The translations under genes were made by a program, and so were the position numbers. Shown piece by piece: positions 7,828-26,278 of a DNA stretch of 43,384 bases. The stretch lies in assembly GCF_016792905.1 (NCBI RefSeq), contig NZ_JAEULP010000080.1, forward strand, positions 1 to 43,384, in the 5' to 3' direction. Numbering within the stretch: the first letter of the stretch is position 1; the number at the start of each line of letters is the position of its first letter. This stretch comes from Tabrizicola sp. GTDB lineage: Bacteria > Pseudomonadota > Alphaproteobacteria > Rhodobacterales > Rhodobacteraceae. The notes below the pieces were generated by a model that was given only the letters and a program-made list of their open reading frames with translations, ran no database searches and was not told where the DNA came from.

Positions 7828-8631
7828 TCACTCCGGATAGACGCGGGTGTCGTCCTCTTCCATGTAGCGGCACTTGTTCAGCACAACGCCCAGAACCTGC
7901 GTGCGCTTGCCCAGATCGGCGCCGCATTTCTCGATCTCGGCGGCCGTCGTCTCCTCGGCGGCGACGACCATCAGCGCGCAATCGACCTGGTCCAGATAGG
8001 CCAGCGCATCGTCGCTGACCAGCATCGGTGACATGTCGAACAGGATGACGTCCGGGCGCAGCCGGGCTTCAACCTCGTCGATCAGGTCCGCGGTGCGCGG
8101 AGCCGACAGAAGCTCGGCCGGGCTGGCGACAGAGCGCGAGTTCAGCGCCAGGGCCAGGTTCGGGCCGACCCGCCTGATCTGGCCATAGTCCAGCCTGCCC
8201 TCGCCAAGCGATTCGATGAAATTCTGGTCCGGCGACATACCCAGCATCTCGACAAGCGAAGGATGGCGCAGGTCCAGCTCGACCAGCAGCACCTGCTTGT
8301 CGGTCAGCCGCGCCAGGCTGAACGCCAGGTTCAGCGCAACGGTGGACTTGCCGCAACCCGGAGTCGGCGAGGTGATGGCGACACGGGTCCAGCCGTTCGT
8401 GCGCAGCGTGCGCAGGAGGTTGGTGCGCATGACGTCGAAGTTGGCGGCACGCGCGCCCGGTTGGTGTGTCACGACAAGGTTGCGTGCCAGGACCTTCGGG
8501 TCGAGCGCGACCTCGCTCAGGTCTTGCCAGGGATTGGAGCCGGGTGAGGCCTTGCCGCCAGCGCCGGAGGGTTGAAGCTTGCGATCGCGGGCCGAACGCG
8601 CCTTGGCGAGTGCTGACTGGATCCGTTCCAT
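7828..8631 (-). CDS. CpsD/CapB-type tyrosine kinase of the EPS machinery
   Basis: The 267-residue protein is a BY-kinase/ParA-like ATPase: Walker A SPTPGCGKST (88-97), Walker A' VLLVELDLRHPS, Walker B VILFDMSPM. In such systems the soluble kinase binds the cytoplasmic end of a Wzz-type membrane protein, and phosphorylation cycles control polysaccharide chain length and export. The usual C-terminal tyrosine cluster is nearly absent: only two tyrosines occur in the last 15 residues (CRYMEEDDTRVYPE). It starts six bases after the stop of the Wzz gene and is last in the ATPase-Wzz-kinase operon. A ParA-like protein unrelated to EPS is unlikely given the neighbours. Confidence 0.88.
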   Translation of the reverse strand: MERIQSALAKARSARDRKLQPSGAGGKASPGSNPWQDLSEVALDPKVLARNLVVTHQPGARAANFDVMRTNLLRTLRTNGWTRVAITSPTPGCGKSTVALNLAFSLARLTDKQVLLVELDLRHPSLVEMLGMSPDQNFIESLGEGRLDYGQIRRVGPNLALALNSRSVASPAELLSAPRTADLIDEVEARLRPDVILFDMSPMLVSDDALAYLDQVDCALMVVAAEETTAAEIEKCGADLGKRTQVLGVVLNKCRYMEEDDTRVYPE

Positions 8632-10197: not shown

Positions 10198-11266
10198 TCG
10201 AGGTCTCACTCACGTCATATGCGGCATTCGCCGAAAAAAATACACCGTCATCAATGACTTGCTGGACCGTCTGCGCGCTGACGACCTGCTTGCCCCTGGT
10301 AAACGCATAGACCATGGCCAGATCACAGAGCTGGTTCACCAGCCGGGGCACGCCCCTTGTCACGTCGTAGATCAGCTTCACGGCAGGGGCCGAGAAGATT
10401 CGCTTCTCGGTGCCGGCAACCTTCAGACGGTGCGGAATGTAGCCGCGCACGGTCTTGAGGTCCATCGCCGTCAGATGGTAGCTGGCCGCGACGCGCTGTG
10501 CGAATTGCCGCATCTTGGGACGCGAGACCAGGTCGCGCAGCTCGGGCTGGCCGATCAGCACCAGTTGCAGCACCTCGTCCTTGCCGGAGTTGATGTTGAT
10601 GAACATCCGCAGCTCTTCCAGCGCCTCGGCCGTCAGGTTCTGCGCTTCGTCGAAGATGAGGACGACGCTGCGCCCGGCCGCATATTCCGACAAGAGGAAG
10701 TTCTGGAATCGCGAGAAGAGGTCGACGTAGCTTTCGTCCAGTTCGGCCGGCTGGTCCAGCGCGTGCAGCACCCAGCGCAAAAGTTCGGCCCGCGAGCCGT
10801 GCGGGTTCGAGATCAGGCCCACGGTCATCTCGGAGCCGAGCGATCGGACAAGATGCAGAAGTAGCGTGGTCTTCCCCGCGCCGACCTCGCCGGTGATCAG
10901 CGTGATCGGGGCATTGGCGCGGACGCCGTATTCCAGCATCGTGTAGGCGCGCTGGTGCGACTGTGGCCAGTACAGGAAATCCGGGTCGGGCGTCAGGGCA
11001 AAGGGCCGGGTCGTCAGGCCGAAATGCTCGGTATAGATTTCCTGCGTGCGGGTCACGGGCGGCTCGGACAAGAGACGGGTCCGTACCCGTGTCGTGGGAC
11101 GCGGCGGGGCTTCGACGGCGGCCGTCATTTCATAGGAACGCGGGTCCACCTGCTCGGCCTGAAGGACCGGATCGGGCAGCGCGGGTGCAGACTCCGCCCC
11201 GTTCCCGGCATCCGGGTCGAACCATAGGATGCGGGACAACAACTTGCGGGATCTGCTCTGCGTCAT
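10187..11266 (-). CDS. ExeA-like AAA ATPase of EPS locus
   Basis: The 359-residue protein has about 75 poorly conserved residues, then a typical ExeA/GspA-type AAA ATPase start (EIYTEHFGLTTRPFALTPDP). This is followed by Walker A GEVGAGKT (126-133), Walker B VVLIFDEAQNL, and the arginine-containing QRVAASYHL region. Such ATPases accompany chain-length and kinase genes in XrtA/PEP-CTERM EPS loci, where they are thought to energise assembly in or at the inner membrane; their exact task is unknown. AAGGTGAG lies just before the ATG. It is the first gene of a three-gene minus-strand operon that diverges from the PKS gene. Confidence 0.85.
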   Translation of the reverse strand: MTQSRSRKLLSRILWFDPDAGNGAESAPALPDPVLQAEQVDPRSYEMTAAVEAPPRPTTRVRTRLLSEPPVTRTQEIYTEHFGLTTRPFALTPDPDFLYWPQSHQRAYTMLEYGVRANAPITLITGEVGAGKTTLLLHLVRSLGSEMTVGLISNPHGSRAELLRWVLHALDQPAELDESYVDLFSRFQNFLLSEYAAGRSVVLIFDEAQNLTAEALEELRMFININSGKDEVLQLVLIGQPELRDLVSRPKMRQFAQRVAASYHLTAMDLKTVRGYIPHRLKVAGTEKRIFSAPAVKLIYDVTRGVPRLVNQLCDLAMVYAFTRGKQVVSAQTVQQVIDDGVFFSANAAYDVSETSNDA

Positions 11267-11679: not shown

Positions 11680-14600
11680 ATGAAGGACGTGGTGCAGGAC
11701 CTTCCCGCAGAGACCGATATTGCGATCGTGGGGATGGCCGCGCATCTGCCGGGGGCGGCGGAGATCAGCGCCTATTGGGACAACCTGCGCGAGGGGCGCA
11801 CGGCCGTCCGGCGCCTGACCGAGGAGGAGATACTGGCCTCGGGGGAGAACCCTGCGGCCCTGCGCAACCCGAACTACGTCCCGGCGGCCGCTCTGCTGGA
11901 GGGTTTCGACCGCTTCGACGCGGAATTCTTCGGCTTCTCCCCCAAGGAAGCCGCGATCCTTGATCCGCAGCACCGCCAGTTCCTTGAGGTGGCCTGGGAA
12001 GCTCTGGAAAACGCCGGGCATACGCCCGAGGGCTTCAAGGGCCGGATCGGCGTCTTCGCGGGCTGCGGCATGGGCAGCTATTTCTACTTCAACCTCTGCT
12101 CGAACCCCGCGCTGGTCGAAAGCACCGGCATGTTCCTTCTGCGCCATACCGGGAACGACAAGGATTTCCTGTCCACCCGCGTCAGCCATGTCTTTGACCT
12201 GAAGGGGCCAAGCCTTGGCTTGCAGACAGCCTGTTCCACCTCGCTCGTCGCCACGCACTACGCGATTCAGGCGCTGTTGAACGGCGAATGCGACATGGCC
12301 TTGGCGGGAGGTGTCACCATCGACCTGCCGCAGGGCCGCGGTTACATCTACAAGGAGGGCGAGGTCCTGTCGCCCGATGGCGTTTGCCACGCCTTCGACC
12401 ACCGGGCACAGGGGACGGTTTTCGGCTCTGGCGCGGGGACGGTGCTTCTGCGCCGGATGGACGATGCGCTGGCCGATGGCGACCACATCTGGGCGGTGAT
12501 CAAGGGCAGCGCTGTCAACAACGACGGGGCGGCGAAGGCGGGCTATCTGGCCCCTTCGGTCGAGGGTCAGGCCGACTGCATCGCGACTGCGCTCGCCGTG
12601 GCCGGGACGCCCGCCGAGACGGTGGACTACATCGAATGCCACGGCACCGGCACCTATCTGGGCGACCCCATCGAGGTCGCCGCGCTGACCGAGGCGTTCC
12701 GCCGGACAACCAACGCCAAGGGCTTCGCGCGCATCGGAAGCGTCAAGACCAATATCGGCCACCTCGACACGGCGGCGGGGGTTGCCAGCCTGATCAAGAC
12801 GACGCTGGCGCTGCACCACGGCCAGATGCCGCCCAGCCTGAACTTCGAGGCCCCGAACCCCGCCATCGACTTCGACAACAGCCCCTTCCGGGTGAACGAC
12901 AAGCTGTCCGACTGGCCGCGCCGCATGGGTCCGCGCCGGGCCGGGGTGAACTCGCTCGGCGTCGGCGGGACCAATGCGCATGTCGTCGTGCAAGAGGCGC
13001 CAGCCGTGGCAGCCTCTGAACCGTCGGACTGGCCGTTCCAGCTGATCACCCTTTCCGCCCGCAGCCAGTCGGCGCTGGGCGAGGCCTCCTCGCGGCTGGC
13101 TGCGCATCTTCGGGCAAACCCGGTTCAGAACCTCGCCGATGTCGCCTGGACCCTGAAACAGGGCCGCCGCGCCTTTGAACATCGCCGCGTGCTGGTGGCC
13201 GAAAGCCACGAGGAAGCCGCCAGGATGCTGGAGGCGGGCGATCCGCGCCGCGTCTTCACCCAGCGTCGTCTGGGCGACACGCCCGACGTCGTCTTCATGT
13301 TCCCCGGCGGCGGGGCGCAGTACCCGAACATGGCGCGCGACCTCTACGAGACCGAGCCCGTCTTCGCAGAATGGATGGACCGGGGGCTTGCCGCCCTTGG
13401 CGATGCGGAAGCCGAGACGCGCGCCCTCTGGCTACCCGCCGAGGGGCAGGAGGCCACCGCCGCCGAGGCGCTGCGCCGCCCGTCGAAGCAACTGCCGCTG
13501 ATCCTGATCGTCGAGGTCGCGCTGGCGAAGCTGTGGGAAAGCTGGGGCGTAAAGCCCGCCATGCTGATCGGTCACAGCATGGGCGAGAACGCCGCCGCCT
13601 GTGTGGCGGGCGTCATGACGCTTGAGGCCTGCGTCGGCCTCGTCCGCCTGCGCGGGGAGCTCTTCGACACGGTGCCCGCGGGCGGGATGCTCTCGGTCCC
13701 GCTGTCGGAAGCCGCGCTTAAGCCATATCTCGGCGATCTCGACATCGCCTCGATCAACGCGCCTGAACTGACGGTCGTGTCCGGCTCCGACGCGGGGTTG
13801 AAGGACCTTGCCGCACGGCTCAAGGCCGACGACATCGACACCACCCGCATCGCCATCGACATCGCCGCGCATTCGAAGATGCTGGAAGGCATCCTTGCCG
13901 CCTTCCGCGCGCATCTCGCCGGGATGCAGCTGTCGCCGCCGCAAATCCCGATCATCTCGAACCGCTCCGGCCAGATCCTGACCGATGCGGAAGCCACCAG
14001 CCCCGACTACTGGGTCGCCCACCTGCGCAACACCGTGCGCTTCGCCGACGGCACGACGACGCTGCGGCAGAAGGCGGACCGGGTCTATCTGGAGGTCGGT
14101 CCCGGCCGGGCAATGGCCTCGCTGGCGCAAGCCAACGGCGCGATGGGGGGCCAGCCGGTGCCCTCCAGCCTGCGCCACCCGGAAGATACCGTCAGCGACG
14201 ACCGGCATTTCATCGCCACCCTCGGCCGTCTCTGGGCCTGCGGGGTTGAGCCCGACCTGCATCAGCTTTGGGGCGAGGCGAAGCGGCGGCGCGTGCCGCT
14301 CCCGACCTACCCCTTCCAGCGCTCGCGCTACTTCATCGACCCCGGCAAGGCCCAGGTCGTGACCGAGGCCGACGTGACCGTGCAGCGGCACGACAAGGTG
14401 GAGGATTTCGGCTACCGGGTCGGTTGGCGCGTGATGCCCGCCGACTGCCCGGTCGATGTGGAAACCGAACTGGGGGCGCCCCTGACCTGGCTGGTCTTCG
14501 CCGACGAGGCCGGGCTGGCGCGGGCTGCCGTCCAGCGCCTGCGCAACGCCGGGCATCGGGTGGTGACGGTCCACGCGGGCGACGCCTTCGCGCGGACGTC

Positions 14601-17600
14601 GGACGACACCTACACGCTGGCGCCGGAACACGGGCGCGAGGGCTATGACGCCCTCCTTGCCGACCTGGCACAGCGCGACCTGACCCCGGCGCGGATCGCG
14701 CATTTCTGGCTGGTGACGCAAGGGGAGACCTTCCGCCCCGGTTCCAGCTTCTTCCAGCGCAATCTGGAACAGGGGTTCTGGAGCCTGTTCTTCCTTGGCC
14801 AGGCGATGGGCGAGATCGGGCTGAAGCCCCTGCCCCACCTGACAATCCTCACCTCAGGCGCCGCTCAGGTGCGGACCGAGGCCCTGCCCTACCCGGAAAA
14901 GGCAACGGTGGCTGGCCCCGTGCGGGTGATGCCGCGCGAACTGCCGGGTCTGACGGCCAGCCTCCTCGACGTCGCCCTGCCGGACAACCGCAAGGCGGCG
15001 ATCCCGGCGGAAGCCGTCTCGGCGGTGCTGGAGGAAATGCTCGCCACGCCGGGTAACACGGTGGCGGCGATCCGGGGCAGCCGACGGCTGGAAACCCGGC
15101 TGGTGCCCTCGCCCCTGCCTCCGCAGGCCGAGGTGCCCGAAGGCTCGGTCTGGGTCATCACCGGCGGCTTCGGCGGCATCGGGGTGACGGTGGCCGAACG
15201 CCTGATGCGCGACCGCCATGCCAAGGTCGCGCTGATCGGGCGGCATGTGCCCGAAGCGGGTTCCGTCCGCGCCGGGGTGCTGTCGCGGCTGGAACGCCTT
15301 GGCCGGGTCATGGCCGTCGCCGCCGATGTCTGCAACCCCGAGGACATGCGCGCGGCCTTCGACCGGGTGCGCGCCGAGTTCGGGCCGATCTACGGCGTCG
15401 TCCATGCGGCGGGGACGGTCGACGACGCCCCGCTTCTGGGCAAGGACCCCGGCAGCGCGGATGCGGTCCTGTCGCCCAAGGTCCATGGCACAAAGCTTCT
15501 CGACACGCTCCTCCCCGATGGCAGTGTCGACCGGATCGTGCTGTTCTCCTCGACCTCCACCGTGATCACGCCTGCGGGTCAGGCGGACTACGTCGCCGCG
15601 AACGAATATCTTAACGCCTTCGCCCGCAGCCGGGCGGGCGGGATGACCAAGGTCACGGCGATCAACTGGGGGATCTGGTCGGGGATCGGCATGGCCGCCG
15701 ACGCCGATGCAAAGCGGCAGGGCAAGGACGCGGGCGCCCCGCTGCCCGGCCAGCTGGTGCTGGAGCGGATGCAGAAGGGCGGGGATGAAACCCGGTTTCA
15801 TGCAACCCTGACCAAAGAGCATTGGGTGATGGACGATCACCGCCTTCTGGACGGCACGGCGGTCCTGCCCGGCGCCGCCTGGCCCGAGATAGCTCATGAA
15901 GCGCTGATGGCGGCAGGCGGCAAGGCGGGAGTGCAGCTGAACGACCTTACGGTCTTCCGGCCCCTGCGGCTGGAGGCCGACCTGCCCCGCGACCTGCGCG
16001 TCAACCTGACCCGTGGCCGGGACGGCAACCAGCGCCTGCAAGCCCGCGCCCTTGAGCCGCAAGGCTGGGCGCTGACCGCCGAGATGGGCGTCGCCACCCT
16101 GACTGCGCCGGCGGATACAATCGACCTAGCCGCCATCGCCGCCCGCTGCCCGGACAAGACCACAGCGCCCGGGGGGGAGAACCTGCCCTCGGCGCAAGAG
16201 GACCGCATCGCCTTCGGCCCACGCTGGCAGGTGCTGCGCGCGACCGCGCTTGGAAACCGCGAGGGGCTGGCGACGCTGGCGCTGCCGACGCAAGCCGTGC
16301 AGGACACCGCGACCTGCACGCTCCACCCGGCGCTTTACGACATCGGCACCGGCTGGGGCATCGCGCTACTGCCCAAGGTGCAGGAAGGCTTCGTCTGGGC
16401 CCCGGTGATGACGACCTCCATCCGAATCCATGGCGCGCTTCCCGCCGAAATCCGCAGCTGGGTCCGGCTGGCGGGCGACCCGGCCGAGGACGTGGCGAGC
16501 TTCGATGTGACGCTTACCGACCCCACCGGCAAGGTGCTGGTCGAGGTCGAGGGCATCACCTTCCGCAAGGTCGCCTTCGAGGAGGCCCTCGCCCGCCCCG
16601 CGCCCCCGAACCCGCGCGAGGTGGAACGCGACGACGATCAGCGCGGCCATTCCCCCGCCGAACAGCGGCTGGCGCAGGCGCTTCAGGGCGGCATCCGCCC
16701 CGCCGAAGGGGCCGAGGCCTTCCTCCGCGCCATCGCCGCCGACGGCGCGCAGGTCCTCGTCTCCTCGCTCGACCTTGATGCCCTCGTCCGGCAGGCGAAC
16801 GCCCCCATCGTCGCAGATGCCGAAGGCCCCGGCTTTGCCCGGCCCGAACTGGAAACCGCCTATGTGGCCCCGCGCAACAGCGTGGAACGCACCCTCGCGG
16901 GCTTCTGGGCCGAGCTTCTGGGCGTCGCCGAAGTGGGGGTGGAGGACGACTTCTTCGCCCTTGGCGGCCACTCGCTGATCGCGGTCAGGCTCTTCGCGAT
17001 GATCCGGCGGCAATGGAAGGTCGATTTCCCGATCTCGGTCCTGTTCGAGGCCCCGACCATCGCCCGCTGCGCCGCCCTGATCGCGGATCGCATCGGGCCG
17101 GAGGAAGAGACCGCCGACGCCCCGGCCAAGCTGGCCGACCCGGCGGGGCCGAAGTTCACCCATCTGGTCGCCATGCACCGGGGCGAAGGCGGGCCGAAGA
17201 CCCCGTTCTTCCTGGTCGCGGGCATGTTCGGCAACGTCCTGAACCTGCGCCACCTGGCGAGCCTCCTCGGCACCGACCGGCCGTTCTACGGCCTTCAGGC
17301 GCGCGGCCTGTTCGGCGATGCCGAGCCGCATATGACCATCGAGGAAGCCGCCACCTCTTGCCTCGCCGAAATCCGGCAGGTGCAGCCGAAGGGACCGTAT
17401 CTCCTCGGCGGCTTCTCCGGCGGCGGCCTCACCGCCTGGGACATCGGGCGGCAGCTGCGCGCGGAAGGCGAGGAGGTGGCGCTGATGGTGCTGCTCGACA
17501 CGCCACTGCCAGTACGGCCTTTCCTGACGAAGCCCGACAAGGCGATGATCAAGCTGGCCGAAATCCGCGCAGGCGGCCCGCAGTTCCTCGCGGAATGGGC

Positions 17601-18015
17601 CAGGCGCCGCTGGGAATGGGAACGCTCGCGCCGGGCCAAGGCCGCGAACGAGCCTGACCCGACCGTCCCCTCGTTCCACAACGCCTCGATCGAGGCCGCC
17701 TTCCGCCACGCCATCGGGGTCTACGACCTGAAGGGCTGGGAGGACGGCAAGGTCGTCCTCTACCGTCCGCCGCTTGACCGCCGATTCAAGGTGACGGGTG
17801 GGAACTGGGTCTCGAACGCCCGGGAATATGTCTACCCCGACAACCTGTGGACGCCCTTCGCGCCCCGGCTGGACGTGGTGGAAGTGCCGGGCGACCATGA
17901 TTCCATGGTGCTGGAACCGAACGTGCGCGTATTGGCCGCACGGATGAAGGCCGCGATCCAGGCGGCCGAGGCTGGCGATGTCCGCCATCCTGATCATAGA
18001 CTTGCTGCCGAGTGA
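11680..18015 (+). CDS. Type I polyketide synthase, KS-AT-KR-DH-ACP-TE
   Basis: The 2111-residue megasynthase has one complete module. KS at about 10-430 has the active Cys185 in ACSTS plus HGTGT and NIGH histidines. AT at about 540-830 has Ser633 in GHSMGE and AAHS where HAFH or YASH is usual, so malonyl preference is only likely. A KR structural half (about 895-1150) precedes the catalytic KR (GGFGGIG at 1162, Tyr1304, Asn1308, and a VDD at 1247-1249 that fits the B-type LDD motif). A DH-like domain at about 1380-1640 has His1387 and Asp1554. ACP Ser1765 is in GGHSL. TE has Ser1913 in GFSGG, with Asp1940 and His2073. DH after KR is an unusual order. There is no loading domain, so the starter probably comes from the NRPS encoded 13 bases downstream. 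GAGAGGG precedes the ATG. Confidence 0.93.
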   Translation: MKDVVQDLPAETDIAIVGMAAHLPGAAEISAYWDNLREGRTAVRRLTEEEILASGENPAALRNPNYVPAAALLEGFDRFDAEFFGFSPKEAAILDPQHRQFLEVAWEALENAGHTPEGFKGRIGVFAGCGMGSYFYFNLCSNPALVESTGMFLLRHTGNDKDFLSTRVSHVFDLKGPSLGLQTACSTSLVATHYAIQALLNGECDMALAGGVTIDLPQGRGYIYKEGEVLSPDGVCHAFDHRAQGTVFGSGAGTVLLRRMDDALADGDHIWAVIKGSAVNNDGAAKAGYLAPSVEGQADCIATALAVAGTPAETVDYIECHGTGTYLGDPIEVAALTEAFRRTTNAKGFARIGSVKTNIGHLDTAAGVASLIKTTLALHHGQMPPSLNFEAPNPAIDFDNSPFRVNDKLSDWPRRMGPRRAGVNSLGVGGTNAHVVVQEAPAVAASEPSDWPFQLITLSARSQSALGEASSRLAAHLRANPVQNLADVAWTLKQGRRAFEHRRVLVAESHEEAARMLEAGDPRRVFTQRRLGDTPDVVFMFPGGGAQYPNMARDLYETEPVFAEWMDRGLAALGDAEAETRALWLPAEGQEATAAEALRRPSKQLPLILIVEVALAKLWESWGVKPAMLIGHSMGENAAACVAGVMTLEACVGLVRLRGELFDTVPAGGMLSVPLSEAALKPYLGDLDIASINAPELTVVSGSDAGLKDLAARLKADDIDTTRIAIDIAAHSKMLEGILAAFRAHLAGMQLSPPQIPIISNRSGQILTDAEATSPDYWVAHLRNTVRFADGTTTLRQKADRVYLEVGPGRAMASLAQANGAMGGQPVPSSLRHPEDTVSDDRHFIATLGRLWACGVEPDLHQLWGEAKRRRVPLPTYPFQRSRYFIDPGKAQVVTEADVTVQRHDKVEDFGYRVGWRVMPADCPVDVETELGAPLTWLVFADEAGLARAAVQRLRNAGHRVVTVHAGDAFARTSDDTYTLAPEHGREGYDALLADLAQRDLTPARIAHFWLVTQGETFRPGSSFFQRNLEQGFWSLFFLGQAMGEIGLKPLPHLTILTSGAAQVRTEALPYPEKATVAGPVRVMPRELPGLTASLLDVALPDNRKAAIPAEAVSAVLEEMLATPGNTVAAIRGSRRLETRLVPSPLPPQAEVPEGSVWVITGGFGGIGVTVAERLMRDRHAKVALIGRHVPEAGSVRAGVLSRLERLGRVMAVAADVCNPEDMRAAFDRVRAEFGPIYGVVHAAGTVDDAPLLGKDPGSADAVLSPKVHGTKLLDTLLPDGSVDRIVLFSSTSTVITPAGQADYVAANEYLNAFARSRAGGMTKVTAINWGIWSGIGMAADADAKRQGKDAGAPLPGQLVLERMQKGGDETRFHATLTKEHWVMDDHRLLDGTAVLPGAAWPEIAHEALMAAGGKAGVQLNDLTVFRPLRLEADLPRDLRVNLTRGRDGNQRLQARALEPQGWALTAEMGVATLTAPADTIDLAAIAARCPDKTTAPGGENLPSAQEDRIAFGPRWQVLRATALGNREGLATLALPTQAVQDTATCTLHPALYDIGTGWGIALLPKVQEGFVWAPVMTTSIRIHGALPAEIRSWVRLAGDPAEDVASFDVTLTDPTGKVLVEVEGITFRKVAFEEALARPAPPNPREVERDDDQRGHSPAEQRLAQALQGGIRPAEGAEAFLRAIAADGAQVLVSSLDLDALVRQANAPIVADAEGPGFARPELETAYVAPRNSVERTLAGFWAELLGVAEVGVEDDFFALGGHSLIAVRLFAMIRRQWKVDFPISVLFEAPTIARCAALIADRIGPEEETADAPAKLADPAGPKFTHLVAMHRGEGGPKTPFFLVAGMFGNVLNLRHLASLLGTDRPFYGLQARGLFGDAEPHMTIEEAATSCLAEIRQVQPKGPYLLGGFSGGGLTAWDIGRQLRAEGEEVALMVLLDTPLPVRPFLTKPDKAMIKLAEIRAGGPQFLAEWARRRWEWERSRRAKAANEPDPTVPSFHNASIEAAFRHAIGVYDLKGWEDGKVVLYRPPLDRRFKVTGGNWVSNAREYVYPDNLWTPFAPRLDVVEVPGDHDSMVLEPNVRVLAARMKAAIQAAEAGDVRHPDHRLAAE

Positions 18016-18028
18016 CCGGAGATTTCCC

Positions 18029-21000
18029 ATGACCCTGACCGCCCTTCTGATCGGCAACGAAAGCCTGACGGTCGAATGTGGCAAGCGCTGGCTGGAGCGG
18101 GGACATGCCCTTGCCGCCGTCGTCACGCGTGAACCTAAAGTGGCCGCCTGGGCCTCTCATGCCGGTCTCAGGGTCATCGCGCCGGGCGCCGGGCTGGCTG
18201 CGCGGACCACCGGTCTTGTCGTCGACTGGGTGCTGTCGGTCGCGAACCTCTCGGTGGTGCCCGCACCGGTGCTGGCGCTGGCACGGGCGGGCGGCGTCAA
18301 TTTCCACGATGGCCCCCTGCCCGGCTACGCGGGCCTGAACGCCCCGGTCTGGGCGCTCCTGAACGGCGAGGCGACCCACGCGATCACCTGGCACCTGATG
18401 ACCGGTGGCATCGACGAGGGCGACGTGCTTGCGACGCGCAGCTTTCCCATCGAAGCCGACGACAGCGCCTTCTCCCTGAACGCCCGTTGCTTTGCCGCAG
18501 CAGTGGAGTCGTTCTCCGAAGTCATCACGGCGATGGAGGCCGGGGGTCAGCCGCGCCACCCGCAAGCCTCCGGTCAGCGCAAAATCTGGCGCCGGGCTGA
18601 TCGGCCCCGCGCGGCGGGGCGGCTCGATTTCACCCAATCCGCCGAGACGGTGGCGCGGACGGTCCGCGCTCTGGACCACGGCGGCTATCGCAACCCGCTT
18701 TCGGTTGCGAAGGTCGAGGCTCCGGGTCAGGTCTGGGCCGTCGGCGCGGCCGAGGTCGTGCCCGGATCGGGCGCGGCAGGCGCGGTCCTTGCCCGCGACG
18801 CGGACAGCCTGACCGTGGCCTGCGGCGAGGGCGCGGTTCGTCTTTCTGCACTGACCTGCCTCAAGGGCCTGCCGATCGACACAGGGCGCGCGGGGGCAAG
18901 CCTGGTGTCTCTCACCCCGGACGAGGCGCTGGCACTCGATGCCGAACTTGCTCCGGTCGCCGAGGCCGAAGCCCGGCTGCGTGGCCTTCTCCTGAAACCC
19001 GATCCGGCGCTGACCGCTTCGACAGCCAACGCCCCCGACTGGCGGCAGCTTCCCCTGCCCGCCGCCGGGGCCAGCTGGCTTGCCCTCGCCGCGATCCGCG
19101 CCTTGGGCCGCAGCGGCGGCGACATCGCCTTTGCTTCGGGCAAGGACCCGGCGCCGGGCTTTGTGCTGCCCTGGGTGCCGGTGCGCCTTGATGCCTCCGG
19201 GACAGTCATCGCCGCCGAGGAACGGGTCGCACGGGCGCTGGACGCCGCGAAGGCCGCAACCGGCCTTGCCGCCGATCTCGGCTTGCGGGAACCGGCCCTG
19301 ACGGGGCTGACCCCGTCGGGTCTGGCGGTCAGCGAAGGCGCGGGGCCGCTGGCGGGCACGGCGGTGACGCTTGCAGGCGACGCGCTCTGGCATGACGCGA
19401 CCCAAGTCTCGCCCGACGAGGCCGCGACGCTGGTGGAGCGGATCACCCGCCTCCTGGCCGAGATGGCGGCCCGGCCCGATGCCGACCTGGCCGACCTCAG
19501 CCCGCTGTCGCAGGCCGAAACGCAGGTCTATCAGGGTGCGCTCCGGACCACCGCTCGCGTCTATGACCGCAGCCTGACCATCCCCGCGGCGATCCTCGCT
19601 CAGGCCGCGCGGACGCCGGACGCCGTGGCCGTGATCGCGGGCGAGGCGAAACTCACCTACGCCGCGCTTGCCGCCCGTGCCGCCCGCATCGCCAACACCC
19701 TTGCCACGATGGGCGTCGGCAAGGGCAGTCTGGTCGGCCTGGCCTGTCGCCGGACTATCGACATGGTGGCGGGCGCGCTTGGCATCCAGCTGGCGGGGGC
19801 GGCCTATGTGCCGATGGACCCGGCCTATCCCGCCGACCGCCTGGCGCTCTATGCCGAGGATTCGGGGTGTCCGGTGATCGTCACCGAAGCGGCCGTGGCC
19901 GAGACGCTGCCGAAGGGGCCTGCCCTTCTGGTCCTTGACCGCGATCCCCGGCTTGCCGCTGCCGTGGGCTTGCCCGGTCATGGCCCAACCGCCGAAGACC
20001 CGGCCTATGTGATCTACACCTCCGGCTCCACCGGACGACCGAAGGGCGTGGTCGTCACCCACCGCAACGTGATGAATTTCTGCGCCGGGATGGACGATGT
20101 CGTCGGCACCGACCCCGGAACCTGGCTGGCCGTCACCTCGCTCTCGTTCGACATCTCGGTGCTGGAGCTGTTCTGGACCCTGACCAACGGTTTCACCGTC
20201 GTCCTCGCCGACGATTCAGCCCGGGTGCGGCCTTCGGGCGGGACAGCGGGTGCCTCTGGCGTCAGCGCGCGGGGGATGGAGTTCTCGGTCTACTACTGGG
20301 GCAATGACGACCTGCCCGGCCCCTCGAAATACGAGCTGCTGCTGGAGGGCGCCAAATTCGCCGATGCGAACGGCTTCTGCGCGGTCTGGACGCCGGAACG
20401 CCACTTCCATGCTTTTGGTGGCCCCTACCCCAACCCCGCAGTCACCGGCGCGGCGGCGGCAGCCGTCACGAAGAATATCGGCGTCCGGGCGGGCAGCATC
20501 GTCGCCCCCCTGCACCATCCCGCGAGGATCGCCGAGGAATGGGCGGTGATCGACAACCTGACCAACGGGCGCGCAGGCATGGCTTTCGCCTCGGGCTGGC
20601 AGCCGGATGACTTCGTGCTGCGCCCCGAGAATACGCCCCCCGCGAACCGGCAGGCGCTGTTCGATGCCCTCGACCAGGTCCGCCGGTTGTGGCGCGGCGA
20701 GGCGGTGGAGTTTCCGCGCAAGGACGGCACGCCCTTCGCGGTCAAGACCCAACCCCGCCCGGTGTCGAAGGACGTCGAAGCCTGGGTGACGACGGCAGGC
20801 AACCCCGAGACCTGGCGCGAGGCCGGTCGCGCGGGCGCCAACGTGCTGACCCACCTCCTGGGCCAGTCCATCGCCGAGGTCGAGGGCAAGGTGAAGCTCT
20901 ACCGCAAGGCATTGGCCGAGGCCGGGCATGACCCGTCCCGTTTCAAGGTCACGCTGATGCTGCACACCTACCTCGCCGCGGACCGCGAGACGGCGCGGGA

Positions 21001-22573
21001 AGTTGCACGCGAACCGATGAAGAGCTACCTGCGCTCCGCCGCTGGCCTCATCAAGCAGTACGCCTGGGCCTTCCCCGCCTTCAAGAAGCCGCAGGGCATG
21101 ACGAACCCGATGGACATCGACCTTGGGTCGCTGGCCCCGGATGAACTGGAAGCGATCCTCGATTTCGCCTTCCTGCGTTACTTCGACGATTCGGGCCTCT
21201 TCGGCACGGTCGAGGATGCCGTGAAGCGGGTCGAGGAGCTGAAAGCCATCGACATCGACGAGGTCGCCTGCCTGATCGACTACGGCATCCCGACCGCAGT
21301 GGTTCTGGAAGGTCTGAAGCCTGTGGCCGAGGTCCTGCGGCTGACCAACTCCGGCTCCGGCTCCGGCGCGGACGAGACGATGGCGGGGCTGATCCAGCGC
21401 CACGGCGTCACCCACCTGCAATGCACGCCGTCCATGGCCCGGATGCTGGCGGAAGACGACGGGGCCCGCGCGGCGCTGAAGGGACTGAAGCGGATGCTGG
21501 TCGGCGGCGAGGCGTTGACGGGGCGGCTCGCGGGTGATCTTGCGGGCCTGATCGGCGCGCCGGTCCTGAACATGTACGGCCCGACCGAGACGACGATCTG
21601 GTCCTCGGTCGAGGCGACGACGGGCGCGGATGGTGTGGTCAACATCGGACAACCCATTGCCAACACGGCGCTTTATGTCCTGGACGACCGGCTTTCCCCC
21701 GCCCCCGACGGCGAGGCCGGAGAATTGTGGATCGGCGGCGAGGGCGTGGCGCAGGGCTATTTCCAGCGCCCCGACCTGACCGCCGACCGCTTCCGTCCCG
21801 ATCCCTTCGCAGGCGCCGGGCGAATGTACCGGACCGGCGATCTGGTGCGCAGACGGGCCGATGGCAAGCTCGACTACCTGGGCCGTGCCGATTTCCAGGT
21901 GAAGATCCGCGGCCACCGTATCGAACTCGGCGAGATCGAGACAACGCTTGAAGCGACCGGCGGCATCCGCCAGGCCGTCGTCATCGCACGCGAGGATCAA
22001 CCGGGCGACGTGCGATTGGTGGCCTATGTCACCGCCGACGGGCCGGTCGACGAACAGGCGTTGCGCGCCGAGCTGGCCGCACATCTGCCCGAAGTGATGG
22101 TCCCGGCGCATATCGTCCGGCTTGAGGCCTTGCCCCTCACCCCGAACGGCAAGGTCGACCGCAAGGCGCTGCCCGCGCCCTTCGCTACCGCTGCCTCTGC
22201 GGCCAAACCGGTCGTGGCGCTGGAAGGCGGGGTCGAGGAAACCATCGCCGCTGTCTGGGCCCGCGTTCTTGGCGTGCCGCAGGTCGGGCGGTCGGACAAC
22301 TTCTTCACCCTCGGCGGCCATTCGCTTCTGGCGGTGCAGGCGCATCGCGAGATGAAGGTGGTGCTGAACTCCGACCGGCTGGCGATAACCGACATCTTCC
22401 GCTTCCCCGTCGTCTCGGCGCTGGCCGCGCATATCGGCAAGTCGCTTCCCGCACCGGCTGCCGGCGCGGCCACCCCTGCGGCCGCAGCGGGCGAGTCGGG
22501 CGCCGACAGCCGGATGGATGCCATGGCCCGGCGCCGTGCCATGCGCGAGGCGCGGGAAAAGGCCCTGGGATGA
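18029..22573 (+). CDS. Formyltransferase-NRPS with embedded luciferase-like monooxygenase
   Basis: This 1514-residue protein contains, in order, a formyltransferase domain (1-285; catalytic Asn91, His93, Asp129 in NFH and GGIDEG) and a degraded condensation-like stretch without HHxxxDG (about 290-490). The first part of an adenylation domain follows (about 510-730; YTSGSTGRPKG, FDISVLELF). A flavin-dependent luciferase-like monooxygenase of the MupA/Atu3671 family (about 749-1105) is inserted between motifs A4 and A5. Then come the rest of the adenylation domain (NMYGPTE, YRTGD, NGKVDRK) and a PCP with Ser1432 in GGHSL. Pocket residues D708, I709, L712, Q1131, L1157, G1159, M1182, I1190, W1191 and K1375 differ by one from the glycine code as I remember it. 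It has no TE. GGAGA precedes the ATG; an earlier in-frame start would overlap the PKS gene. It is translated between PKS and PPTase. Confidence 0.93.
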   Translation: MTLTALLIGNESLTVECGKRWLERGHALAAVVTREPKVAAWASHAGLRVIAPGAGLAARTTGLVVDWVLSVANLSVVPAPVLALARAGGVNFHDGPLPGYAGLNAPVWALLNGEATHAITWHLMTGGIDEGDVLATRSFPIEADDSAFSLNARCFAAAVESFSEVITAMEAGGQPRHPQASGQRKIWRRADRPRAAGRLDFTQSAETVARTVRALDHGGYRNPLSVAKVEAPGQVWAVGAAEVVPGSGAAGAVLARDADSLTVACGEGAVRLSALTCLKGLPIDTGRAGASLVSLTPDEALALDAELAPVAEAEARLRGLLLKPDPALTASTANAPDWRQLPLPAAGASWLALAAIRALGRSGGDIAFASGKDPAPGFVLPWVPVRLDASGTVIAAEERVARALDAAKAATGLAADLGLREPALTGLTPSGLAVSEGAGPLAGTAVTLAGDALWHDATQVSPDEAATLVERITRLLAEMAARPDADLADLSPLSQAETQVYQGALRTTARVYDRSLTIPAAILAQAARTPDAVAVIAGEAKLTYAALAARAARIANTLATMGVGKGSLVGLACRRTIDMVAGALGIQLAGAAYVPMDPAYPADRLALYAEDSGCPVIVTEAAVAETLPKGPALLVLDRDPRLAAAVGLPGHGPTAEDPAYVIYTSGSTGRPKGVVVTHRNVMNFCAGMDDVVGTDPGTWLAVTSLSFDISVLELFWTLTNGFTVVLADDSARVRPSGGTAGASGVSARGMEFSVYYWGNDDLPGPSKYELLLEGAKFADANGFCAVWTPERHFHAFGGPYPNPAVTGAAAAAVTKNIGVRAGSIVAPLHHPARIAEEWAVIDNLTNGRAGMAFASGWQPDDFVLRPENTPPANRQALFDALDQVRRLWRGEAVEFPRKDGTPFAVKTQPRPVSKDVEAWVTTAGNPETWREAGRAGANVLTHLLGQSIAEVEGKVKLYRKALAEAGHDPSRFKVTLMLHTYLAADRETAREVAREPMKSYLRSAAGLIKQYAWAFPAFKKPQGMTNPMDIDLGSLAPDELEAILDFAFLRYFDDSGLFGTVEDAVKRVEELKAIDIDEVACLIDYGIPTAVVLEGLKPVAEVLRLTNSGSGSGADETMAGLIQRHGVTHLQCTPSMARMLAEDDGARAALKGLKRMLVGGEALTGRLAGDLAGLIGAPVLNMYGPTETTIWSSVEATTGADGVVNIGQPIANTALYVLDDRLSPAPDGEAGELWIGGEGVAQGYFQRPDLTADRFRPDPFAGAGRMYRTGDLVRRRADGKLDYLGRADFQVKIRGHRIELGEIETTLEATGGIRQAVVIAREDQPGDVRLVAYVTADGPVDEQALRAELAAHLPEVMVPAHIVRLEALPLTPNGKVDRKALPAPFATAASAAKPVVALEGGVEETIAAVWARVLGVPQVGRSDNFFTLGGHSLLAVQAHREMKVVLNSDRLAITDIFRFPVVSALAAHIGKSLPAPAAGAATPAAAAGESGADSRMDAMARRRAMREAREKALG

Positions 22574-23217
22574 CCGGGGGGCGAACCGCCCCGCTGGAAG
22601 CCGCGCTGCGATCGCTGTTTCCGCCAGGGGTGGCGACGGCCGTGGTCCCGATTGGCGGCACGAATGCCCCGCTCTGGCGTGAGGAAGCGGCGGCCATGGC
22701 CGGTGCTGTTCCCGCGCGGGTGGCAGAGTTCGTCGCCGGGCGGACCGCCGCGCGGCGGGCGCTGGCGGATCTGGGTCTGCCGCCCGTGCCCTTGCCGATG
22801 GGTCCGGATCGTGCCCCGCACTGGCCGACCGGAATCTCCGGTTCCATCACACATGCCGCTGGCTATGCCATGGCCGTCGCCCGGCGCGGCGCGCCGCTTG
22901 GTGTCGACCTTGAACAGGACGCGCCGATCCCGCCCGACCTCTGGCCGACCCTTTGCCGGGCAGAAGAGCTGGCGCGGCTTGGCAGGGAGCCCGGACACCT
23001 TGTCAGGCAGATTTTTGCGGCAAAAGAGGCGGTGTTCAAGGCACAAGACACCGGCCGCCGCGCGATGTTCGGCTTCGACGTCGTGTCGGTCACACTTGTC
23101 ACAGGGGGGTTCGAGGCCCATTTCCTTGATGATGCAGGGGCGTTCCGGGCAGGTCAGGTCCTGCAGGGCCGCCTTGCACTCTGTGACGACATGATTCTGG
23201 CGGGGGTGGGGTGGTGA
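22570..23217 (+). CDS. 4'-phosphopantetheinyl transferase (EntD/Sfp type)
   Basis: The 215-residue enzyme transfers the phosphopantetheine arm of coenzyme A onto carrier proteins. Recognisable elements are GSITHAAGYA (91-100), GVDLE (111-115, with the metal-binding Asp113) and the FAAKEAVFK motif (149-157). Its length and motifs fit the EntD branch used for secondary metabolism. The ATG overlaps the NRPS stop as ATGA, so it is translationally coupled. The obvious clients are the PKS ACP (Ser1765) and the NRPS PCP (Ser1432) encoded just upstream. Its presence argues that the PKS-NRPS is a working, self-contained unit. Confidence 0.93.
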   Translation: MTGGRTAPLEAALRSLFPPGVATAVVPIGGTNAPLWREEAAAMAGAVPARVAEFVAGRTAARRALADLGLPPVPLPMGPDRAPHWPTGISGSITHAAGYAMAVARRGAPLGVDLEQDAPIPPDLWPTLCRAEELARLGREPGHLVRQIFAAKEAVFKAQDTGRRAMFGFDVVSVTLVTGGFEAHFLDDAGAFRAGQVLQGRLALCDDMILAGVGW

Positions 23218-24164
23218 TGGCGTCCCGGCGCAAGGCGATAGTGGGCGGCCTTGGAGCGATTGCTGGCGCCGGTGCGATCTACCATCTCTGGACGCGTCGA
23301 CCCTCGGCGGCAGCCGTTCGCGAACGGCTGGCGGGCGAGCTGGCCTCGCCAACCGGGCCGATTTCGGTCTACCATCTCGGCCACAGTCTCGTGAACCGCG
23401 ACATGCCGGCGATGCTTGCCCAACTGGCCCCGCCGGGCCATCGCTATGACAGCCAGCTTGGCTGGGGCACCTCGCTGAAAGCCCATTGGGGCGATGCGGA
23501 GATTGACGGATTTGAGGCCGAGAACGCCCATTCCCGCTTTCGCCCGGCGCATGAGGCGGTGGATAGCGGCGAGTATGACGCCATCGTGCTGACCGAGATG
23601 GTCGAGATCCGCGATGCGATCCGCTATTTCGACAGCGCAACCTATCTGGCGCTCTGGGCGGAAAAGGCGATTGCGGCGCGGCCCGATGTCCGGCTGTATC
23701 TCTACGAGACCTGGCACCGGCTGGACGATCCCGACGACTGGCTGGAACGTCTGGACCGCGACCTCGACCGCTATTGGCTGCGTCAGGTCCTTGGCCCGGC
23801 ACTGCAGGAACTGCCGCAAGGCACACGGATCAACCTGATTCCCGCGGGCCAGGTCCTGGCTGCCTTTGTCCGCGTGATCGAAGCGCAGGGTGGGGTCGAC
23901 AACATCCGCGACCGGACTGATCTCTTCGCGCGCGGCAGCGATGGCGCAGTTGACCCTATCCACTTGAACGACATGGGTAATTACCTTGTCTCACTGGTGC
24001 ATTTCACCGTGCTCTACCATGCTTCCCCCGTCGGGCTTCCAACCGCGCTGCGGAAAGCCGATGGTACCCCCGCCCTCGCGCCGGGCGCGCGGGCAGCGCG
24101 GCTGATGCAGGAAACGACGGCCCGGATCGTCGTCTCCCTGGGGTTGTCAGGCATTGCCGCCTGA
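23217..24164 (+). CDS. SGNH/GDSL-like hydrolase, probable esterase or acyltransferase
   Basis: The 315-residue product starts with a twin-arginine-like or membrane-anchor sequence (SRRKAIVGGLGAIAGAG), suggesting a periplasmic location. The block I serine appears in YHLGHSLVN (Ser57, with GHS in place of GDS), GWGTSL resembles block II, and DPIHLND (Asp246, His249) is the block V dyad. No clear GxN block III is visible. SGNH enzymes in polysaccharide loci often move or remove acyl groups. Its ATG shares one base with the PPTase stop (TGATG), placing it firmly in the PKS-NRPS operon. I infer that it handles the acyl group made by that line, either transferring it to sugar or hydrolysing it. The exact family is unsure. 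Confidence 0.65.
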   Translation: MASRRKAIVGGLGAIAGAGAIYHLWTRRPSAAAVRERLAGELASPTGPISVYHLGHSLVNRDMPAMLAQLAPPGHRYDSQLGWGTSLKAHWGDAEIDGFEAENAHSRFRPAHEAVDSGEYDAIVLTEMVEIRDAIRYFDSATYLALWAEKAIAARPDVRLYLYETWHRLDDPDDWLERLDRDLDRYWLRQVLGPALQELPQGTRINLIPAGQVLAAFVRVIEAQGGVDNIRDRTDLFARGSDGAVDPIHLNDMGNYLVSLVHFTVLYHASPVGLPTALRKADGTPALAPGARAARLMQETTARIVVSLGLSGIAA

Positions 24165-24330
24165 TGTGACATTTAGGCCACCTGGCCGGTCATTCGTTCC
24201 TCAGGCCACCCACGCACCGCAAAACCACCGATTCGCGGATGCATTTCCTCTTTCCGAACCGGTGCGGGACAAATACTGTTGACGCGTCGCAGTCGCGCCC
24301 GTTTTCACTGGACGCCAAGGAGTGTTTTCG

Positions 24331-24930
24331 ATGTCTATCTTTCACCGCCTCGCCGCCGCCCTGCTCCTTGTCCCAATTCTGGCTGTCGCCAGCTGGGCTC
24401 AGGACTACCGAGTCCGCGCGGGCGATGTCCTGCAGATCGAGGTGCTGGAAGACGCGACGCTGAACCGCACCGCCATCGTGCTGCCGGATGGACAGATATC
24501 GCTGCCGCTGGCCGGGTCGGTCCAAGCTGCCGGTCGCAGCCTGGCGCAGGTGCAGGCCGATCTGGCCACCCGCCTGGCCCCGAACTTCGCCACCCCGCCC
24601 ACCGTCTATGTGACCCTCAACTCGCTGGCCGAACGCGCACCCGCTGCCGCGCCGCGCCTGACGGATATCTACGTCCTCGGCGCCGCGACAACGCCTGGGA
24701 AGGTCGAGGTCAAGCCCGGTGCCACGCTGCTGCAGGCACTGGCCGTGGCGGGTGGCGTCACTCCCTTCGCTGCGAAAAAGCGCATCCAGCTGCGCCGGGT
24801 CGACAAGTCCGGCGTCGAAAAGGTCTACAAGTTCGACCTTGACGCGATCGAGCGCGGCGCCGCCGGTGGTTCCACGCGTCTGATGTCTGGCGACGTGATC
24901 GTCATCCCGCAGCGCAAGCTCTTCGAGTAA
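24331..24930 (+). CDS. Polysaccharide export protein (Wza-like, SLBB domain)
   Basis: The 199-residue protein has a signal peptide (probable cut after SWA at residue 23), a Poly_export domain (YRVRAGDVLQIEVLED onward, about 25-110) and an SLBB domain (about 112-165, DIYVLGAATTPGKVEV). It should form or complete the periplasmic and outer-membrane channel for EPS together with the Wzz protein. There is no lipobox cysteine, unlike classic Wza, and it is short. AAGGAG lies eight bases before the ATG at 24331; a GTG at 24322 overlaps that ribosome site and is unlikely. A gap of about 165 bases after the SGNH gene could hold a separate promoter, but I see none that is convincing. Confidence 0.92.
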   Translation: MSIFHRLAAALLLVPILAVASWAQDYRVRAGDVLQIEVLEDATLNRTAIVLPDGQISLPLAGSVQAAGRSLAQVQADLATRLAPNFATPPTVYVTLNSLAERAPAAAPRLTDIYVLGAATTPGKVEVKPGATLLQALAVAGGVTPFAAKKRIQLRRVDKSGVEKVYKFDLDAIERGAAGGSTRLMSGDVIVIPQRKLFE

Positions 24931-24937
24931 TCGGGTC

Positions 24938-26278
24938 ATGCGCCGCACTGGCCTTGCCCTTGGCGGTGTCTGCTCCGCCTGCGCGCTCCTGTCGTCCTCG
25001 GCCGTCCTGGCGCAGGACGGCGGGATACTTCTGACGTTCGGGATCGAGAACCGGCTTGAGATCGTCCGTAATGACGACCTTGCGGTTCCATCCAGCGGTA
25101 CCGATGTTGCCGACGTCACCGTGCTGTCGTTCGGGCTGATCAGCGAGACGGCGATTGACCGTCTTGCCTTCTCGGCATCGGGCGCGCTGATCGCCGAGAA
25201 CACCGCCGACAGTTCCGGGACCGCGCTGGATTTCGGCCGGGCCGCGGTGACGCTCGACTACCATCGCGAAGTGCCAGCGGCGGTGCTCGACGTTACTGCC
25301 ACTTTCCGGAACGACAATGTCGACGCTTTCGACGATCTGGAAGAGGATGACGAGACCGGGACCCGCACCGACCTTGGCGTGTCGGCACGACTTGAAACGG
25401 GCCGGACCTCCTCCATCGGCCTTGCCATGGGGGTGGCCCACGAAACCACCGACTACCAGGATACGGGCGATCCGGATCTGGTCGACTCCACCGAGACGCG
25501 CGCCGATTTCGCGGTGCTACTCCACGCGACCGAAACCACGACGGGCCGCGTGGGCCTGCGCTACCGTCATCGCGAGGAAGAAAGCGTCGGCGACTACAGG
25601 CTTGACGAACGGACCGCCTTTGCCGGACTGGACTACGCCGTCAGCGAGCGGCTCGATCTGTCCGCCGAGATCGGCTACGTCACCTCTGAGATTGAGGAAT
25701 TCGGCATCCTCGACAAGGCGGACGGTCCCGAACTCAGCCTCGGGCTGACCTATGACATGCCCGTCGGCATTGCGACGGCATTGTTTCGTGTCACCACCGA
25801 TGCCGACGAAGGCCAGCGCGAGACGTTCGAAATCGGCCGCGAGCTGGAAACCCCGGCGAACGTCATCTCGGCCCGGCTTGGCATCACCCATGCCGATCCG
25901 ACCGGCACCGACATGATCGGCAGCCTGAGCCTTCGTCACCCGCTGCCGGATGGCTCCATCGGTGTAAGCCTCGAACGCAGCGTCGCGTTTGACGATGATG
26001 ACGACGAGGAAGTCGTATCGTCGCGGGCCAGCGTGAACTGGGCAAAGTCGATCAACGACTTCTCGGCGATCTCGCTGGACATCAGCTACGAGTTGAGCGA
26101 CTCGCCGACCGAACGGATCGAACAGGTGACGCTCGGCGCGGGCTACAGCCACCGGCTGACCGACGCCTGGACCCTGGACAGCGGGATCGGCTATCGGGTT
26201 CGGCACGATGCCGACGGCCATTCTGAATCGCCGAACCTTTTCGTGGCGCTGAGCCGCGATTTCCAGTTCCGGCCCTGA
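24938..26278 (+). CDS. Outer-membrane beta-barrel protein of EPS locus
   Basis: The 446-residue product has a signal peptide (cut probably after VLA, residue 25) followed by alternating hydrophobic and polar stretches, many aspartate- and glutamate-rich turns, and a terminal strand ending SRDFQFRP. This is typical of a barrel inserted in the outer membrane. Position directly after the export-protein gene (seven-base gap) matches the outer-membrane protein of XrtA/PEP-CTERM-type EPS loci, so it may form the outer-membrane exit. Acidic loops such as DDDDEE and LEEDDE may face the outside. No enzymatic motif is visible. A strong terminator ends the operon. Confidence 0.75.
   Translation: MRRTGLALGGVCSACALLSSSAVLAQDGGILLTFGIENRLEIVRNDDLAVPSSGTDVADVTVLSFGLISETAIDRLAFSASGALIAENTADSSGTALDFGRAAVTLDYHREVPAAVLDVTATFRNDNVDAFDDLEEDDETGTRTDLGVSARLETGRTSSIGLAMGVAHETTDYQDTGDPDLVDSTETRADFAVLLHATETTTGRVGLRYRHREEESVGDYRLDERTAFAGLDYAVSERLDLSAEIGYVTSEIEEFGILDKADGPELSLGLTYDMPVGIATALFRVTTDADEGQRETFEIGRELETPANVISARLGITHADPTGTDMIGSLSLRHPLPDGSIGVSLERSVAFDDDDDEEVVSSRASVNWAKSINDFSAISLDISYELSDSPTERIEQVTLGAGYSHRLTDAWTLDSGIGYRVRHDADGHSESPNLFVALSRDFQFRP

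Follow-up and report, generated by a model that had tools for sequence, protein, structure and literature searches.

A PKS-NRPS block inside an exopolysaccharide locus of Tabrizicola sp. and its candidate role in making an acyl group for the polymer

What does a small assembly line of a polyketide synthase (PKS) and a nonribosomal peptide synthetase (NRPS) do in the middle of an exopolysaccharide (EPS) locus? The question is raised by contig NZ_JAEULP010000080.1 of Tabrizicola sp. (assembly GCF_016792905.1), whose whole stretch of 43,384 nucleotides is called the window here. At positions 11680-24164, genes for a PKS, an NRPS, a 4'-phosphopantetheinyl transferase (PPTase) and an SGNH-fold protein lie between kinase, Wzz and ATPase genes on one side and Wza and barrel genes on the other. 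An earlier note had described this block from the letters of the window, with a thioesterase (TE) of the PKS's own and a PPTase of the cluster's own, and the domain searches bore it out (a TE domain; PF17837 and PF01648). We think it fairly probable that the block serves a Wzy-dependent EPS pathway as its dedicated acyl-group synthase, made up of two proteins. The evidence comes from domains, conserved motifs, the code of the adenylation (A) domain, adjacency and co-occurrence.

To what extent does the block keep company with EPS genes? In a sample of 149 genomes of Rhodobacteraceae, each from a different genus, 53 were found to carry the NRPS, in 55 copies of which a few are partial. A Wzz gene was present within 15 kb of 44 of these copies, compared with the 0.9 expected under uniform placement in 4 Mb genomes. 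The limit for a Wzz match was E 0.01 in 48 genomes and 0.001 in five, and nine copies had no Wzz match on their own contig. Pyruvate carboxylase was used as a control. It is present in 50 of the 53 genomes, and Wzz lies within 15 kb of it in only one of those 50, the window's own (3 kb). A genome scan found 500 relatives, of which the best 80 loci were kept. Nearly all of these belong to Rhodobacteraceae in the wide sense, and the others to Hydrogenophaga and a Curvibacter metagenome-assembled genome (MAG). At least two EPS families other than GT2a, the glycosyltransferase described below, were found within about 10 kb in 74 of the 80, a count made without a random-locus control and with hidden Markov models (HMMs) built from the same loci. 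The names of these families come from BLAST against window genes or from the Pfam match of one representative, and general glycosyltransferases are among them. The earlier note had held that its proposed link to the EPS would fail if, in related genomes, the block were no more often near EPS genes than apart from them; in both samples it is mostly near them.

The closest partner of the line is a family-2 glycosyltransferase (GT2), GT2a, which is absent from the earlier note's account of the block. In 62 of the 78 loci holding both a PKS and an NRPS gene, its orthologue stands between these two, and a match above 48% identity was found somewhere in the locus in 73 of 80. In the Tabrizicola group, GT2a is shifted downstream or outside the flank. 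Across the 149 genomes, the orthologue occurs in 53, together with the NRPS in 51, and 94 genomes have neither (Fisher p 7e-35, which treats genomes as independent and is too small because of their relatedness). Of the 55 NRPS copies, 50 have GT2a no more than 2 kb away. The orthologue cut-off was set post hoc in a score gap, E 1e-98 to 7e-56; at 1e-40, 60 of 149 genomes match. Two genomes have the NRPS only: G535, where the homologue (46% identity) is part of a larger PKS cluster, and G510, a draft genome with a partial match. G477 and G489, the two genomes scored as having GT2a only, nevertheless encode an NRPS, of 1114 and 1108 aa, that lacks the LLM monooxygenase insert described below.

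Which genes, then, form the conserved unit? Among the 61 loci whose flanks reach 8 kb or more on each side (family membership was an HMM score above 40 bits, and GT2a paralogues may be included), the GT2a family was present in 59 and the PPTase in 58, followed by gt2c (37), Wzz (35), WecG (34), a Wzy-like protein (33), the kinase (31), Wzx (22), the SGNH protein (20), and the ATPase, Wza and barrel (12 each). The unit put forward in the earlier note, PKS-NRPS-PPTase-SGNH with the ATPase and barrel, thus gives way to PKS-GT2-NRPS-PPTase. Since the same glycosyltransferase is found beside the line in most relatives examined, inside a sugar-polymer locus, the line probably serves to decorate the polymer and does not make a free drug-like molecule.

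Another explanation is that the line yields a free glycosylated small molecule, such as an antibiotic, signal or metal chelator, which GT2a glycosylates, with the EPS genes as mere island neighbours. We regard this as rather unlikely. The nearness of Wzz, compared with the control, speaks against it, and similar kits appear again in Aminobacter and other families. The operon has a single fixed glycosyltransferase, a GT2 enzyme, and enzymes of this type commonly act on lipid-linked sugars. Twenty unlabelled neighbour families, judged from one representative each, comprise flippases, sugar epimerases, oxidoreductases, a glycosyltransferase, a sugar transferase, acyltransferases, an RTX protein and formate-dehydrogenase or housekeeping genes. 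No drug exporter, siderophore receptor or resistance gene was found among these 20 (smaller families lie outside the scan). For a free molecule, on the other side, the TE domain can simply hydrolyse, and modules related to the NRPS occur in non-EPS clusters (G307, G535). MupA-like enzymes belong to the pathways of mupirocin (PMC10952193) and palmerolide (PMC8739492), free natural products according to the available portions of these papers. Hybrids with equal gene lengths have also been taken as possible antitumour biosynthetic gene clusters (BGCs) in the available part of PMC10584327.

Two of the neighbour families can be noted in their own right. An RTX-repeat calcium-binding protein family is near the line in 19 of the 80 loci (L062:3-2045 and relatives). 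Formate dehydrogenase genes (molybdopterin subunit, Nuo51-type subunit and FdhD) are downstream of the line in at most 13 of the 80 (L036:18604-21495 and relatives, from Cypionkella and kin); this neighbourhood may be chance synteny or a tie to formyl chemistry.

The genes of the locus in the window are as follows.

7828..8631, minus strand: CpsD/CapB-type tyrosine kinase (TIGR03018, 110 bits, below cut-off; PF10609)
8638..10209, minus strand: Wzz chain-length determinant (PF02706, 28 bits, above cut-off; TIGR03007 below cut-off)
10187..11266, minus strand: ExeA-like AAA ATPase resembling the TIGR03015 subfamily (256 bits against a cut-off of 324)
11680..18015, plus strand: type I PKS of 2111 aa, KS-AT-KR-DH-ACP-TE (Pfam domains)
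18029..22573, plus strand: NRPS loading module with formyltransferase (FT; N and C parts), A and thiolation (T) domains (Pfam; an alternative upstream ATG at 17978 is possible)
20282..21334, plus strand: LLM monooxygenase of the MupA/Atu3671 type inside the A domain (TIGR04020, 470 bits)
22570..23217, plus strand: PPTase (PF17837, PF01648)
23211..24164, plus strand: SGNH-fold protein, DUF4886-like (alignment, model, hydropathy)
24322..24930, plus strand: Wza-type polysaccharide export protein (PF02563, PF10531)
24938..26278, plus strand: probable outer-membrane beta-barrel (weak, sub-threshold PF13505/TIGR04390)
26333..27457, minus strand: GT2a, family-2 glycosyltransferase (PF00535; start probably near 27313)
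27325..28161, minus strand: WecG/TagA-family glycosyltransferase (PF03808, TIGR00696)
28259..29200, plus strand: gt2b, GT2 glycosyltransferase (PF00535)
29222..30457, plus strand: gt1, GT4 glycosyltransferase (PF00534)
30583..31554, minus strand: gt2c, GT2 glycosyltransferase (PF00535)
31668..33236, plus strand: many-transmembrane protein, probable Wzy-like polymerase (12 hydrophobic segments; no Pfam match of its own)
33244..35067, minus strand: PglK/MsbA-type ABC transporter, candidate flippase (NF050066, 329 bits, below cut-off; PF00005)
36126..36923, minus strand: initiating sugar-phosphate transferase (PGT; PF02397)

The markers of a Wzy-type pathway (initiating PGT, Wzz, BYK kinase and Wza) are all present, with the kinase called from a general ParA/CbiA-type match because its TIGR score is below cut-off. 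A relative of the Wzy-like protein in L077 has a sub-threshold Wzy_C match. No Wzx was found among the window open reading frames (ORFs) scanned, where the PglK-like ABC transporter is present instead. The PPTase and SGNH genes overlap in frames downstream of the NRPS. The ATPase, Wzz and kinase resemble those of an XrtA/PEP-CTERM locus, but this assignment was rejected: TIGR03015 scored 256 against 324 bits and TIGR03007 160 against 279, and the exosortase (PF09721) had no match in the window's own genome, which is 93% complete. Exosortase was positive in three of 12 genomes, and in G099 it is on the NRPS contig, about 31 kb away. A tRNA-Gly gene is located at 7666-7740, directly beyond the left edge of the EPS locus. 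A PIG-L deacetylase-like gene (27 bits, just below cut-off) is located at 37984-38832, between the PGT and ManC genes. Its product could release an amine acceptor; the gene had no labelled BLAST match in the 80 loci.

What would such a line start from? In the NRPS, about 250 aa without a Pfam match separate the FT and A domains, and the A domain is split into two Pfam pieces, with the LLM filling the gap between them. This split was another feature beyond the earlier note. The cut-off for the LLM model is 244 bits, and the match covers residues 769-1119 (numbered from 17978). When numbered from 18029, the insert (~752-1102) is between A4 (FDIS at 708) and the A5 region (1182). The A-domain code is DILQLGMIWK, and DILQ(M/L/F/Y)G(M/X)IWK is found in 92 of the 95 rows of an NRPS alignment that counts the window twice; the three exceptions are rows of the multi-module NRPS of G294. 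In the N-terminal alignment of the window with 38 of 78 relatives, the FT catalytic residues N91, H93 and D129 are invariant in all 39 rows. No condensation (C) domain matched at E 0.01 in either the PKS or the NRPS protein. The top PDB sequence match of the NRPS was 9meh (LgrA; 657 bits over four stretches), and that of the LLM segment alone was 6ket (PuwE; 332 bits). The window's genome has a second, separate LLM homologue at G000:C14:50000-51082, which is 45% identical to the LLM region and has an AMP-ligase homologue nearby.

The available text of PMC12283262 gives DILQLGMIWK as common to four glycine-activating A domains with a monooxygenase. Because the code of the line is this glycine code, the line probably starts on N-formyl-(alpha-hydroxy)glycine, as far as can be predicted from sequence. 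The flavin monooxygenase of myxothiazol and melithiazol is located between A4 and A5 and hydroxylates the glycyl alpha carbon, after which cleavage occurs, and the carbinolamide is retained in solanimycin (PMC10204066, available part). Glycine cleavage of the same kind is described for myxothiazol in the accessible text of PMC9396620. The introduction of PMC12283262, as far as available, places such inserts between A8 and A9, unlike PMC10204066. Formylation would give the initiating glycine the N-acyl group that this type of LLM acts on.

In the PKS, the KS motif TACS(T/S)S, the AT active serine and the ACP serine are kept in 82 of 82 alignment rows, and the GxSGG-type serine motif of the TE in 81 of 82. 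The Pfam domain search gave no ER match. The AT specificity motif is (I/V)AAH(S/G) in all 82 rows, which is neither of the two textbook motifs, and the extender unit is therefore not certain. These data also bear on the idea that the PKS-NRPS is mere cargo of a mosaic locus, either dispensable or in decay. G489 looks like such a case: in its NRPS (L123:11190-14516) the LLM is gone, as are the T-domain serine and the N-x-H motif of the FT domain, and its PKS is apparently split in two ORFs, although its GT2a, Wzz and kinase genes are kept. The motifs kept across the alignment and the intact ORFs of the whole block in the window argue against decay as the general state, and we find this idea very improbable. 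In G477, the NRPS (L122:10487-13831) lacks only the LLM; the FT motif is kept and the code, read by eye, is glycine-type and DILQLGLIWK-like.

The fold of the SGNH protein and its Ser...Asp-x-x-His arrangement were recognized by alignment and model. Ser59, Asp248 and His251 are invariant in 25 rows, that is, the window and 24 of 26 orthologues (one with unreadable residues and one with an over-long start were excluded). The protein has a weak N-terminal signal or anchor and is probably located outside the cytoplasm. OafA-type acyltransferases are present beside the line in some relatives, as two families with five loci each.

From these parts we infer the product, the sugar acceptor, the transfer step, the roles of the TE and SGNH protein and the order of steps. 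The PPTase would arm the T and ACP domains. The A domain would load glycine, which the FT domain would N-formylate, and the LLM probably alpha-hydroxylates the N-acyl-glycyl thioester, as in the glycine A-domain-monooxygenase modules of myxothiazol and solanimycin. One C2 extension by the PKS, followed by reduction and dehydration, would give a C4 enoyl group bearing a formamido/carbinolamide carbon, or an aldehyde at C4 upon collapse of the carbinolamide. The TE would then release the group or transfer it to a sugar of the lipid-linked repeat unit; Pks13, which acts with trehalose, is a precedent for a sugar-acylating TE. GT2a would add or recognise that sugar, the neighbouring machinery would flip, polymerise and export the acylated repeat unit, and the SGNH protein may trim or move the acyl group. 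Of the acyl-decorated EPS suggested in the earlier note, the short acyl group fits the domains; its attachment to the polysaccharide is a putative step, and no enzyme that must carry out the transfer was identified.

A further proposal, which we consider doubtful, is that the polymer bears a masked aldehyde, as a 4-(formamido)-4-hydroxy-but-2-enoyl or 4-oxo-but-2-enoyl group. Here the N-acyl cap from the FT would let the LLM form a carbinolamide, which the PKS would extend. Such a latent electrophile would cross-link the exported polymer to surfaces, proteins or amino sugars, with the SGNH protein controlling unmasking or turnover. If so, relatives that have lost only the LLM, such as G477, would make a non-reactive version and provide a natural experiment.

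Does the association hold beyond Rhodobacteraceae? In a phylum-wide sample, 16 of 398 genomes match the NRPS at E 1e-100 (G335 and G294 over part of the query only), and in a class-wide sample, 7 of 385 match at 1e-200. A related module, at 42% identity, is also present in G846. Wzz is within 10 kb in 11 of the 16 phylum matches, two of these Wzz matches being below cut-off. G265 and G151, which belong to other families, hold PKS, NRPS, WecG, glycosyltransferase, Wza and Wzz-like genes together with a weak SGNH match (74-97 bits); in G265, the Wza and Wzz-like genes are further along the NRPS locus. Plasmid pUSP1 of Aminobacter sp. MSH1 (L126) carries a divergent PKS, then an NRPS, PPTase, glycosyltransferase and SGNH-like protein (56 bits, with a signal-peptide-like start), and downstream GH9, O-antigen ligase, Wza, a BcsQ/kinase-like gene, a flippase and glycosyltransferases. 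In Ruegeria conchae, the order PGT-PKS-GT2-NRPS-PPTase-SGNH is found on a 787 kb replicon. In a midpoint-rooted tree, the Hydrogenophaga NRPSs (L032, L034, L035, L039, L040, L043, L050) are nested among those of Rhodobacteraceae, and cassette transfer between classes is the likely explanation. Six Hydrogenophaga loci have an ATPase (40-46% identity) just upstream of the PKS; the one tested scored 280 bits with TIGR03015, below cut-off. L076, a fragmented MAG record titled Exiguobacterium profundum, has Rhodobacteraceae-like genes and is probably mislabelled or error-rich.

Distant homologues are also found outside polysaccharide loci. The G294 match is a different multi-module NRPS. No Wzz is near the NRPS in G099, and in G335 no marker other than SGNH and an acyltransferase-like gene was found within 36 kb.

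Several observations weigh against an EPS-dedicated synthase partnered with GT2a. Eleven of the 44 nearby Wzz matches score below the Pfam cut-off, and in six loci (L024, L030, L041, L050, L061, L064) at most one other EPS family is present, with truncated flanks in four of the six. The related modules in G307 and G535, at 46% identity, are in clusters without EPS markers, and the G265, G151 and Aminobacter loci show no close GT2a beside the line. The PKS and GT2a distances correlate weakly (Spearman 0.35, 59 loci), compared with 0.77 for PKS-NRPS and 0.15 for PKS-PPTase. The SGNH gene is present in only a third of the full-flank loci (20/61), and a simple hydropathy test did not detect an N-terminal helix in the SGNH protein of the window. 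Among the window ORFs scanned there is no OafA-type acyltransferase, and no enzyme that must acylate a sugar was identified.

The cluster itself was probably catalogued before. The available part of a 2023 survey (PMC10584327) reports NRPS-like/type I PKS hybrid clusters in 18 of 37 species. For Roseibaca domitiana, it lists gene lengths of 4527 nt (NRPS) and 6333 nt (PKS), with about 1 kb between the two, and it suggests argyrin-like antitumour products. From gene sizes and spacing alone, this hybrid is probably the same system as the line in the window, with a GT2 gap. A search of the survey's main text for polysaccharide, glycosyltransferase, formyl, glycine and luciferase, each taken as the beginning of a word, gave no hit. 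The literature searched, which was partly available and mostly did not cover subscription journals, showed neither the EPS link nor the GT2 coupling, nor a reading of the line in terms of glycine, formyl transfer and a monooxygenase. If the EPS reading is true, a widespread "orphan" hybrid BGC (in 53 of 149 genera sampled) would be part of a cell-surface polymer system and not a drug-like pathway, and genome miners would have sought its product in the wrong fraction. NRPS/PKS logic would then feed a Wzy-type glycan, with a product class of formylated, oxidised glycine plus one C2 unit and natural variants that lack one tailoring domain.

How does the line compare with known systems? Atu3671, the namesake of TIGR04020, is presumably part of the fabrubactin pathway, and a fabrubactin-type siderophore is a lead only. 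The alpha-hydroxycarboxylates of fabrubactin are credited to FbnE in the available text of PMC12971057. The line shares the A4-A5 monooxygenase insert with the glycine A domains of myxothiazol and melithiazol (PMC10204066, available part) and the code DILQLGMIWK with monooxygenase-bearing glycine A domains (PMC12283262, available part). In SolF of solanimycin, the insert is between A8 and A9 instead. Unlike those modules, the line has a loading module with no C-domain match, in which the FT would supply the N-acyl group, and it is paired with a single PKS module, inside an EPS locus.

The initiation module of LgrA, from linear gramicidin, has the order FT-A-T. The NRPS of the line has the same order, with LgrA as its top PDB match, but it has no downstream C domain, contains the LLM insert and the Pfam-free stretch, and feeds a PKS. 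PuwE has a similar LLM segment, and its cyanobacterial lipopeptide setting differs from the EPS locus here.

The RkpA and WcbR PKSs have an anchor role in capsule, and their loci are ABC-dependent, in contrast to the probably Wzy-type locus here. The line could be their analogue and provide one end of the polymer with a cap or anchor of an acyl or lipid-like kind. The mono-modular PKS genes rkpA and wcbR inside capsule loci (PMC3908369, available part) are a precedent for this, and the line is single-copy in nearly all loci. The lack of an ER domain and the glycine loading module point to a short polar group and not a lipid, and we judge an anchor or cap to be quite improbable. RkpA and WcbR, as single-module type I PKSs in a polysaccharide locus, are nevertheless the nearest precedent in kind. 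The available text of PMC3908369 does not mention an NRPS partner or glycine loading, both of which the line has, and the line has no ER.

For the preferred reading, an acyl-group synthase of a Wzy-dependent EPS pathway, the promonan (prm) EPS of Sphingomonas sp. LM7 offers a comparison. According to the available part of PMC11340318, promonan needs the OafA-type acyltransferase PrmO, and acylation of lipid-linked intermediates is proposed to be essential in promonan and other pathways. Both systems have a barrel or porin (a probable barrel in the window), Wza, an AAA+ ATPase, Wzz, a BYK kinase, WecG and GT2s; promonan also has Wzy, for which the window has a probable Wzy-like protein, and its EPS-required acyltransferase. 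Promonan differs in its OafA-type acylation, in a gene table with no PKS-NRPS as far as available, and in having Wzx where the window has an ABC transporter. The line may fill the role that OafA-type enzymes hold in promonan-like pathways.

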